Of a stretch of 51,109 nt of DNA, positions 36,312 through 39,212 are shown piece by piece. The DNA is from an uncultured Bacillota bacterium (GTDB lineage: Bacteria; Bacillota_I; Bacilli_A; RF39; UBA660): the NCBI GenBank assembly GCA_900317975.1, contig ONIZ01000004.1:1-51109 (forward strand), given 5' to 3'. A program made the translations under genes and the position numbers. Below the pieces are notes generated by a model that saw nothing but the letters and a program-made list of their open reading frames with translations, made no database searches and was not told the DNA's origin. Position 1 is the stretch's first letter, and each line of letters starts with the position of its first letter.

Positions 36312-36340
36312 TTGTAATTAAGTGAAATATAAAATATAAT
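36312..36340 (+). promoter_or_regulatory. Promoter of the lysozyme-like/pseudo-C39 unit
   Basis: TTGTAA (36312-36317), 17-nt spacer, TATAAT (36335-36340). Confidence 0.7.
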
Positions 36341-36368
36341 TTATTTATAGTAAAGGGAGGTATTAAAA

Positions 36369-37193
36369 TTGGCTGAATCTAAGATATGTATAGATTATGA
36401 GAGAATAAAAAAATCAGCAAATAATCTATCACTAATTGAAATTCCACTTAATGAAATAACTTCAGTACAAAGTGAAATAAAAACAATAGAATCAGAACAC
36501 GATGGCATAGACCTAAATAGTTCTGCTTTACAAGAATCTATTGAAAATATTACTAATGTTATAACAAAATCAGGAAATTTAAGTGCTAACCTATTAAGTG
36601 TAGTCAATGCTTTTACCGAGGCTGAAGGTGATATTAAAGAAGCTATTCTAAAAATAGATCCTAACCTAGCAGATGAACTTGCAAATATTAAAAAGGATGA
36701 TATTTCTACTAATAGTGAAGAATTTAAGAAGAGCTTAATATCTTATAAAAGTGATGGAACAGCTGCAGGTGATACTCAAGCATCAATTTATACGATATTA
36801 AGTGAAAAAGGCTATTCAAAAGCTGCTATATGTGCAATACTAGCAAATATGTCTCAAGAATCCGGATTTAGAACAGATGCTATAGGAGATAATGGAACAA
36901 GTTATGGATTATGTCAATGGCACGCTGGTAGATGGGATAGTTTAAATAGTTATTGTAATGAACATGGTTATGACCCATCAAGCATAGAAGGACAAGTAGC
37001 ATATATGGATTATGAATTGCAAAATAATTATCCGGGTGTATATGATAAATTAATGAGTGTAGATGACACAATAGAAGGTGCAAGAGAGGCATCTAAATAT
37101 TGGACAATTCATTATGAAATACCAGCAAATAAAGAACAAAGAGCATCAGAAAGAGCCGCAACAATAGAAACATACTGGGAAAGAGCGTCATAG
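36369..37193 (+). CDS. WXG/LXG-like helical protein with phage-tail-lysozyme-like domain
   Basis: A 274-aa protein starting at TTG, supported by AAAGGGAGG 8 nt before it. Residues 1-115 are a helical, Ser/Ile-rich domain that looks like the N-terminal domain of type VII-secreted (WXG100/LXG-like) proteins; there is no Sec signal. A linker follows to about 138. The C-terminal domain (about 140-272) has the phage-tail-lysozyme layout: AAICAILANMSQESGFRTDA with a candidate catalytic Glu near 163, then SYGLCQWHAGRWDSL and GQVAYMDYEL. It should cleave peptidoglycan. It is cotranscribed with the next gene, 11 nt downstream. No type VII secretion genes are in the window. Confidence 0.8.
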   Translation: MAESKICIDYERIKKSANNLSLIEIPLNEITSVQSEIKTIESEHDGIDLNSSALQESIENITNVITKSGNLSANLLSVVNAFTEAEGDIKEAILKIDPNLADELANIKKDDISTNSEEFKKSLISYKSDGTAAGDTQASIYTILSEKGYSKAAICAILANMSQESGFRTDAIGDNGTSYGLCQWHAGRWDSLNSYCNEHGYDPSSIEGQVAYMDYELQNNYPGVYDKLMSVDDTIEGAREASKYWTIHYEIPANKEQRASERAATIETYWERAS

Positions 37194-37204
37194 GAGGTGA
37201 AAAT

Positions 37205-39169
37205 ATGGCATGTTTAGGAGAAATAACTTGTGATAGTGATATTGGAGCAGCTCCATTCATTGTCGCAGATAAAGGAACAATAACTTCAGCACAAGAAGAA
37301 ATAACAGCAGTAGCAGGAAAAGTTAGTGAAGCTATAACATCAATAGAAGCAGAAATAAGTAGTGGTGGATTAGATGAATATTCATTATATATTAATGGAG
37401 CATCACCTGCATACGATGAAGCAAGTAAAATAGTAACTGATTTAAACACAATAAAAGAAGACCTTGAAAAAATAGGTCAATCATATGAGCAAAACTTATT
37501 GGAGCATTATTCAAAAGAGTTGGATAAATATATTGAGAAGGTAAAAGAAAAAATTGAAGAATTAAAAAAAGATTTAGAAGCAAAAGAATCATCATTAGCT
37601 TCAAAAGAAGCTGCATATGCAAATACAAGAAACGACCCAGATAGACCATCTTATAAAGCTGATATTGATGCATTAAAAACACAAATAGAAGATTTAAAAA
37701 AAGAAATAGAAAAGTATGAAAAGAAATTAGAAGAAGCAGAACAAGCTAAATCAACAACAAATGCACAAATTGAGAAAATAGAAGCAGCAAAAATAGCAGA
37801 AGAAGAAGCTAAGCAAAAACCATCAACAACAGGAGATAATTCTTCAGATTCTGGAACATCAGGAAATTCTGGAAATTCTGGAAATTCTGGAAGCTATGGG
37901 CCATCTTATGCTGGAACAGGATCTAGCGGAGGAAGCAGCGATAGCCGAAGTGGAGATAAAAAAGAAGAAGAGAAAAAAGAAGAAGGAAAAATCGAAAACA
38001 GCAAAATAAAAGTAGATTATGACTTAGATAAAGAAAAAACAGAAATAATAGGTTCAGAAGAATTTATTAAAGTTGATAAAAAAGAACAAGAAGATATAGA
38101 TAAATATTTACAAGACTTAATAAAAGATGGAAAAGTTCCAAAAGACTTTACTGGATACTTCTATGATAAAGCAAATAATAGAATATTATACTTAACAAAT
38201 GGAAAACTAGAAAAAGTAAATAAACCTGCTTTAATAGATGGAAAATTCTTCTACTTCAAAGATGGAGTTGCTCACATTCTAACTAATAACTATACATCAG
38301 ATAATATGAATATCCCATACTACAATTTAGAAAAAGGATTAATGGTAGATGGAAAAACATATACTAAAGAAGAACTAGCTAAATTATTAAAAGAAACACC
38401 TTCCCTAGCAACATCAGCAGCAGGTGTATCATACCTAATAGGAAGAAATGTTAATCCTACAGAATTAACTAATATTCAAGGTTGGGATTATAAAGCTAAC
38501 GAAGGTTTAAATGGACTAAAACTAGCAGAACAATATAAAGTAAATGCATTTACAACTAACAATACTGAATATGTTACAGGTGCTATAAAAAATGGTTATC
38601 CAGTAAGTATTGCTAAAGAAGATGGATATGTAACAGTTGTAGGTGTTGATGATAAAGGTAACTATAAAGTATTAGATCCAAAGAATGAAAATTCTTTAAC
38701 AACTACAATTACAAAAGATGAATTATTTAAAAACGTTAAAAAAGATAGTGAATCAAGATTTACTATATATGGAGCAAAATCACCTGAAGAATATGATAAA
38801 ACAAAAACAAATGTAACAGATATAAGACAAAAAACAGTAGATCAAACAGGCGACAAAAATAACAATAATCAAAACCAATCAAATAATGAACAAAATAACA
38901 ATATAAACAACGAAAACACAGCAAATAACAATAGTAATGCAAATAATACAAATAACGGTCAAGATGCATCAAATAATACAAATAATCAAAACAATAATAC
39001 AAACAATGAAAATACTGCAAATCAAAATAATAATGATAATGCACAAAATAATCAAAATGCAGATAATGATGCAGCTAAAAATCAAAATAATCAAAATGCA
39101 GATAATGCAGCTAATGATGCAGCTAAAAATCAAAATATTCAAAATAATGCAAATACTCAAAACGTATAA
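37205..39169 (+). CDS. Large secreted-looking protein with degenerate C39-peptidase-like domain and Asn-rich tail
   Basis: 654 aa. Residues 1-100 form a helical WXG/LXG-like domain similar in style to the upstream protein; a Lys/Glu coiled coil spans about 100-205, and a Ser/Gly linker with repeated SGN triplets lies near 215-250. The domain at about 385-505 follows C39-like papain-fold peptidases in order, but the Cys motif (usually CGP-x-S) reads SLATSAAGVSYL near 400 and the His motif (GH-x-V-x-V) reads DGYVTVVGVDD near 476; the Asp motif survives (VLDPKN). It is likely a pseudo-peptidase. The last 110 residues are Asn/Gln-rich with tandem repeats. It lacks a signal peptide and a membrane anchor. 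Confidence 0.75.
   Translation: MACLGEITCDSDIGAAPFIVADKGTITSAQEEITAVAGKVSEAITSIEAEISSGGLDEYSLYINGASPAYDEASKIVTDLNTIKEDLEKIGQSYEQNLLEHYSKELDKYIEKVKEKIEELKKDLEAKESSLASKEAAYANTRNDPDRPSYKADIDALKTQIEDLKKEIEKYEKKLEEAEQAKSTTNAQIEKIEAAKIAEEEAKQKPSTTGDNSSDSGTSGNSGNSGNSGSYGPSYAGTGSSGGSSDSRSGDKKEEEKKEEGKIENSKIKVDYDLDKEKTEIIGSEEFIKVDKKEQEDIDKYLQDLIKDGKVPKDFTGYFYDKANNRILYLTNGKLEKVNKPALIDGKFFYFKDGVAHILTNNYTSDNMNIPYYNLEKGLMVDGKTYTKEELAKLLKETPSLATSAAGVSYLIGRNVNPTELTNIQGWDYKANEGLNGLKLAEQYKVNAFTTNNTEYVTGAIKNGYPVSIAKEDGYVTVVGVDDKGNYKVLDPKNENSLTTTITKDELFKNVKKDSESRFTIYGAKSPEEYDKTKTNVTDIRQKTVDQTGDKNNNNQNQSNNEQNNNINNENTANNNSNANNTNNGQDASNNTNNQNNNTNNENTANQNNNDNAQNNQNADNDAAKNQNNQNADNAANDAAKNQNIQNNANTQNV
39045..39135 (+). 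repeat. In-frame tandem repeat in the Asn-rich tail
   Basis: Two near-identical units reading NQNADN followed by AAKNQN. They lie in a longer stretch of Asn-Asn-Thr-type triplets prone to length change. Confidence 0.6.
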
Positions 39170-39185
39170 CAAATCAAATCAAAAT

Positions 39186-39212
39186 AAAAAGGATATTAAA
39201 TATCCTTTTTTA
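39186..39212. terminator. Bidirectional terminator
   Basis: AAAAAGGATA/TATCCTTTTT perfect 10-bp stem with a 5-nt loop, between convergent genes. Confidence 0.85.

Follow-up and report, generated by a model that had tools for sequence, protein, structure and literature searches.

The two-gene locus

The window, a stretch of 51,109 nucleotides from an uncultured gut or rumen member of the Bacillota, stems from a draft genome of 1.9 Mb in 103 contigs, 99.7% complete and with 7% contamination. According to the list of open reading frames it contains two adjacent genes on the forward strand. Gene A (36369-37193) has a TTG start and encodes 274 amino acids, which Pfam, AlphaFold and Foldseek assign to a WXG100-like N-domain and a phage-tail-type lysozyme. 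Gene B (37205-39169) has an ATG start and encodes 654 amino acids, for which AlphaFold and hhalign indicate a helical N-domain of another type, a coiled coil, a linker, a beta-rich segment, a C39_2-like domain devoid of its active site and an Asn-rich tail.

Gene B starts 11 bases past the stop of gene A, and its own GGAGG lies in this gap. A strong GGGAGG stands upstream of gene A, where the ribosome-binding site AAGGGAGG (36354-36361, forward strand) was read from the sequence ahead of the TTG start. The best-scoring promoter-like site, TTGTAA-17-TATAAT (36312-36340, forward strand), belongs to a type of match that overall is no more frequent than expected by chance; its -10 element and upstream bases recur, as judged by eye from three upstream regions, before each of the two A genes in the nearest relative, a sister species represented by the rumen MAG RUG13444 (G001, labelled uncultured Erysipelotrichaceae). 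Gene B is followed by the terminator-like element AGGATATTAAATATCC and a T run (39190-39211, forward strand), recognized by eye, with an A+T-rich stem on which the scanner made no call. Both flanking genes, a divergent trxB-like gene and a zinc-ribbon gene on the opposite strand, are encoded on the reverse strand. A and B form one operon, and as they share a strand, are separated by only 11 bases, have opposite-strand flanks and end in a hairpin, they look like a closed bicistronic unit without a third gene. No candidate for an immunity gene was found between or beside A and B, and no same-strand gene lies between B and the terminator-like site. An earlier note on this DNA had described two cotranscribed genes without Sec signals, and this description, including its coordinates, proved to be accurate, as a hydrophobic N-terminal signal is absent from both proteins.

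Domain architecture of A and B

Residues 1-105 of A (36369-36683, forward strand) make up the A-type N-domain, delineated by AlphaFold, Foldseek/VIA and the family alignment as a helical hairpin with a conserved His44 at its turn. The AlphaFold model of A, with a pLDDT of 77, places this hairpin at residues 27-96, with helices 27-43 and 47-96. As evidenced by a Foldseek search, the closest match to the model is gp13, followed mostly by WXG100 chains (3gwk, 3gvm, EsxB, EsxA); these gave probabilities of 0.90-0.99 and a target TM of about 0.6, with weak E-values of 0.4-2, and it should be noted that helical hairpins match easily. In the same vein, VIA aligned EsxA (3zbh) over 87 residues with a Z-score of 8.3, a value of about 8 not being decisive alone for helices. 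PDB sequence profile searches with the N-domain profiles retrieved mostly coiled coils; 3gvm/3gwk and 3o9o covered A at about full length, with E-values of 0.2-0.6.

A profile built only from A-type N-domains matched a WXG100-like protein of 98 amino acids from this genome, encoded in its C98 operon (E 6e-7, 26 bits, with 9.6 bits for the best shuffled ORF). The alignment is full-length, turn on turn, and places YGTAEEDI of this small protein on FxxAEGDI of the A family. The protein itself has W-S-G and Y-x-x-x-E and matches PF06013 with an E-value of 0.001. In A, the family and WXG100 alignments point to F82-x-x-x-E86 (36612-36626, forward strand) as a candidate export-arm motif: [FYW]xxx[DE] is found at this column in 16 of 18 A-type domains (one Trp counted), its overall density being 1.3% per position. 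The FxxxD of Lap1 and the YxxxE of PE proteins, located at the same position, are needed for export in other species (PMC9600955; PMC10765036). A has no W-x-G, its turn reading H-[DE]-[GDN], and no match to PF06013; we therefore regard its N-domain, on profile and model evidence, as a divergent WXG100-type hairpin that is WXG100-like, but not WXG100 proper.

The second domain of A (residues 136-265, 36774-37163, forward strand) matches Phage_lysozyme2 (PF18013) with an E-value of 2e-31 and 109 bits against a cut-off of 28, and the model superimposes with phi29 gp13 in Foldseek as well as in VIA (Z 12.3), bearing out the phage-tail-lysozyme-like domain proposed earlier. Glu164 of A is aligned with Glu45 of gp13, the catalytic residue of that enzyme. 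From its sequence, A is thus a phi29-gp13-type lysozyme with the catalytic glutamate retained, and is predicted to cut the wall. A lysozyme from another genus, 62% identical to that of A, is preceded by a different helical N-domain and flanked by a double WXG100 protein and a YwqH-like gene, and with such neighbors it again appears in a type VII substrate operon.

In B, the N-domain (residues 1-140, 37205-37624, forward strand) comprises two helices and the hinge GL-x4-SL-x3-G-x-SP, as seen in the family alignment and the AlphaFold model. The LxG motif is absent at this hinge, although Leu56 and Gly65 are invariant in the B-type alignment, and the LXG profile PF04740 matched neither A nor B, nor anything in this genome or 59 relatives. 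By sequence comparison the B N-domain is a separate, undescribed helical family. The earlier description of both proteins as WXG/LXG-like with similar N-domains consequently needs revision: the WXG part stands for A, on fold, profile and motif, the LXG part falls, and the two N-domains belong to different families.

AlphaFold predicts the second long helix of a coiled coil in B (residues 147-204, 37643-37816, forward strand), and the sequence continues into an SGN- and Ser-Gly-rich linker (residues 206-265, 37820-37999, forward strand) with a pLDDT under 45 that indicates disorder. At the C-terminus, an Asn-rich tail (residues 546-654, 38840-39166, forward strand) has 52 Asn in 109 residues, so that coiled coil, SGN repeats and tail are all present as originally described. 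The NCBIfam matches of B were dismissed as generic SMC/Rad50 coiled-coil matches. A beta-rich segment at about residues 290-386 (38072-38362) is conserved like the rest of B and is perhaps a wall-binding module.

The C39_2-like domain of B (residues 391-525, 38375-38779, forward strand) contains not a single Cys or His. An hhalign comparison of B, aligned with its G001 ortholog, to C39_2 domains of relatives yielded a probability of 95%, an E-value of 2e-8 and a score of 50.8, versus a maximum of 17.8 in 60 column shuffles, and the alignment extends over almost all of the domain, with the N-G-x-P-V and D-P segments included. In the closest C39_2 alignment, Pro or Ser is found opposite the Cys and Gly opposite the His. 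The loss of the Cys-His active site is certain, and without these residues a Cys-His peptidase is impossible. Relative to the G001 ortholog, dN/dS is 0.33 in this domain and 0.65 in the linker, the former value indicating that the dead domain is kept under purifying selection rather than decaying.

One might instead take this region for an unrelated alpha/beta domain that never was a peptidase. PF13529 itself matches only marginally, below its cut-off, with E-values of 0.034 and 0.38, the AlphaFold model is weak here (block pLDDT 33-82), and the Foldseek/VIA lists for B are filled by coiled-coil proteins, with the papain-like 3bb7 at rank 45 and not significant. Nevertheless, the profile-profile score far above the shuffles and the order of helices and strands, which even in the weak model fits C39, make such an origin quite improbable. 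A C39-like fold with both Cys and His replaced, as the earlier note had read it, is accordingly upheld by the profile comparison, the model being too weak in this part to serve as proof. The domain resembles Peptidase_C39_2 (PF13529) in fold class and differs from it in having neither Cys nor His and in its extracellular location in the model proposed below. HlyB-type ABC transporters carry C39-like domains without the Cys, a precedent for a dead C39 domain as a binding module, and by this analogy the domain in B probably binds the wall.

Recurrence of the pair and its type VII context

The two genes are conserved together, as expected of the pair proposed earlier: the locus has the same synteny in the sister species, with the trxB side on contig C7 and the zinc-ribbon side on C3. 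In a contig search the A query matched the sister MAG only, and the B query had no match. A-type and B-type genes are neighbors at no fewer than 10 loci from at least 5 genera (G000, G001, G066, G094, G157, G162), among them loci on contigs C38, C31, C10 and, twice, C98 of the genome under study (G000). Its totals are six A-type and six B-type genes, those of G001 seven and seven. Two small genes beside the A-type NlpC genes (C98 and C5), which were outside every training alignment, score as B-type with an E-value of 1e-9. Both species furthermore have an unpaired A-type glucosaminidase between queA and tgt and an unpaired B-type protein with a beta-lactamase fold just before EssC, and these orphans may pair in trans. 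The payloads of the A/B partners include lysozyme, glucosaminidase, NlpC/P60, a beta-lactamase fold and others. Outside the family of this genome, the A and B profiles gave weak, coiled-coil-looking matches only, and by these profiles the pair seems confined to that family.

In G001 a second A/B pair is present. For the two A copies, the DNA identity is about 82% in the N-domain but rises to 98-99% in a stretch that begins near codon 100 and reaches into the lysozyme, and again at the 3' end; their two B partners differ wholly in the C-terminal part. Homogenized lysozymes with diverged N-domains would be expected if the N-domains hold the pairing specificity. The second B (L024:159-1831, at the start of C1) has a different C-terminal half and, in the assembly, a frame change near residue 205, which may be natural slippage or an assembly error; a SleB-like hydrolase considered for this protein had no Pfam support. 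Note that contigs C3, C1 and C7 end within the lysozyme portion that is almost the same in the two A copies, a repeat that fragments the MAG.

Several of the other loci merit description. The B-type protein whose fold resembles that of class A beta-lactamases (G000:C27, L020:8449-14494; PF13354, E 6e-41) is encoded directly upstream of EssC, has no Sec signal and is probably another wall-acting type VII cargo. On C10 (L082:2566-6013), a B-type gene whose product has a metallopeptidase-like match of the ATLF family (PF07737, E 4e-7) is followed by a lipoprotein-like gene and then an A-type gene, and in G162 (C12, L086:2808-4112) a B-type gene that encodes a phosphodiester glycosidase domain (NAGPA, PF09992, E 4e-13) adjoins an A-type gene. 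The pair on C31 (L021:1681-4775) consists of an A-type protein that has a transmembrane-like stretch at its C-terminus and a B-type partner bearing glucosaminidase and NlpC/P60 domains. The orphan A-type glucosaminidase is located at L019:4808-5737 (G000:C68) between queA-like and tgt-like genes, and at the same place in G001. There, two tandem proteins of 415 amino acids, each WXG100-like at the N-terminus and with a larger domain at the C-terminus (G001:C4, L028:7304-9914), are encoded between the B-type beta-lactamase-fold gene and EssC; G000 has a short homolog only, after EssC.

A search of the genome for EssC, suggested in the earlier note, was positive, with three loci over the TIGR03928 cut-off (890 bits versus 778 for the EssC behind the B-type gene), and YukD-like and WXG100-like genes are found beside EssC. 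The A/B pair itself does not adjoin EssC. EssB was not found in the genome with the Pfam profile PF10140, so that the machine is not a standard T7SSb. In G066, G094, C98 and C5, A/B genes follow WXG100-like genes with DUF4176 alongside, whose members have been renamed Ltc and act as chaperones for LXG toxins (PMC13355648). A full EssC over the cut-off was present in each of the six genomes that have A as well as B, versus 55 of the 145 in the sample, for which a chance of about 0.0025 was computed by hand, with relatedness ignored, as phylogeny is in all family-wide counts. From fold, motif, paired paralogs, WXG100/DUF4176/EssC neighbors and synteny we infer type VII-like export and a function as a pair, both of which had been suggested earlier and are now well supported.

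Proposed mechanism, alternatives and relation to known systems

We consider it likely that A and B leave the cell together as a type VII substrate pair, a heterodimer formed through the N-domains that unites a wall hydrolase with a non-catalytic, wall-holding pseudo-peptidase and remodels the cell's own wall. In this mechanism the N-domain of A, a WXG100-type hairpin with its FxxxE export arm, would pack on that of B with its GL..SL...G.SP hinge to yield one heterodimer, and the EssC translocase would recognize a composite signal made of both motifs and export the folded pair without any Sec signal. Outside the cell, the lysozyme of A would cut glycan strands of peptidoglycan, while the dead C39 domain of B would anchor the complex to the wall or to stem peptides, or steer it, and the long coiled coil, linker and Asn-rich tail of B could serve as a stalk or surface extension. 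The remodelling may allow for the passage or anchoring of surface proteins or of the secretion system.

That the own wall is the target is more likely than a killing of neighbors, since there is no immunity gene, the flanking genes are ordinary and other members include housekeeping-like wall enzymes. A contact-dependent or secreted antibacterial weapon, in which the lysozyme acts on the walls of neighbors and B does the aiming, is an alternative that we judge unlikely. It draws on the fact that the described type VIIb LXG effectors are largely antibacterial (PMC10765036), and the varying payloads of the partners resemble polymorphic effectors; in the duplicated pair of G001, moreover, the C-terminus of B was swapped next to a lysozyme-side sequence that is 99% identical. 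However, neither the gap between A and B nor their flanks hold a gene that could confer immunity, and the glucosaminidase paralog of A between queA and tgt stands without a partner gene. Contact-dependent action, also raised in the earlier note, found no positive support in a locus whose flanks are ordinary genes on the opposite strand. Still far less probable is that the two, rather than being type VII cargo, are surface proteins or were left behind by a phage or a conjugative element, as a tail lysozyme with a tail or coiled-coil protein. The lysozyme family is indeed best known from phage tails (PF18013, phi29 gp13), but B has no match in 50,697 phage records or IMG/VR, there are no phage genes within the surrounding 10 kb, the synteny is retained in the sister species, and the N-domain families occur beside WXG100-like and EssC genes.

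The co-exported pair may be part of a wider scheme, which we put forward tentatively and hold to be slightly less probable than its opposite: type VII secretion would be a general route for wall-active enzymes in this uncultured Bacilli family, using obligate A/B pairs, numbering six or seven in a genome of the genus, that form two-headed heterodimers, where both halves may bear a payload and the orphan A and B pair in trans. Its payload list comprises lysozyme, glucosaminidase, NlpC/P60, the beta-lactamase fold, pseudo-C39 and membrane-tailed surface proteins. Most of the type VIIb substrates known so far are toxins whose small guiding partners carry no payload. If true, a parallel to PE/PPE in the Bacillota with cargo from the peptidoglycan machinery would widen the purpose of type VII systems, imply a housekeeping wall role in gut bacteria that lack the classical EssB and make it possible to test cleanly how an export signal shared by two partners is read. 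With the family profiles of both N-domains, such pairs can be found in other genomes.

Among known systems, the LXG effectors with their Lap1/Lap2 partners (TelC/TelD with LapC/LapD, type VIIb) are alike in combining an effector N-domain with an adjacent small WXG100-like helical partner, in the Fxxx[DE] motif on this partner and in the presence of DUF4176 in related operons (PMC9600955). The Laps known so far, Lap1/DUF3130 included, stand alone, have about 100 amino acids and carry no payload, whereas the Lap-like domain of A runs on into a lysozyme and B carries a second payload. Unlike LXG/Lap, the A/B pair also has no PF04740 match, a predicted wall-lytic payload and no immunity gene. In mycobacterial PE/PPE proteins of type VIIa, such as the PE-lipase LipY, helical partners are encoded by adjacent genes and exported as a heterodimer, with the export motif on one partner and an optional C-terminal enzyme on either. 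A/B resembles them in that both halves may carry cargo and differs in phylum, in the absence of PE/PPE sequence similarity and in its cargo of lysozyme and pseudo-C39. Such a capacity of both partners would be unusual for this phylum.

EssH of the S. aureus type VIIb system is likewise a wall hydrolase serving type VII secretion, but it has a CHAP domain and is recruited to the membrane complex, whereas A has a WXG100-like export domain and is itself a predicted substrate (PMC13059805). With phi29 gp13 and PF18013, A shares the catalytic domain and the aligned Glu; in A this domain is joined to a WXG100-like one, and the gene belongs to a cellular genome. The type VII subtypes c-j also have EssC, YukD-like and WXG100 components without EssB and candidate substrates beside small WXG100-like genes, and their description nowhere mentions peptidoglycan, lysozyme, hydrolase or NlpC (PMC11217815). 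In a literature search that covered few subscription papers, lysozymes or other wall hydrolases were not reported as paired type VII cargo. The A/B complex would thus act like an LXG/Lap or PE/PPE complex, yet with payloads on both partners and with different sequence families it falls outside both definitions.
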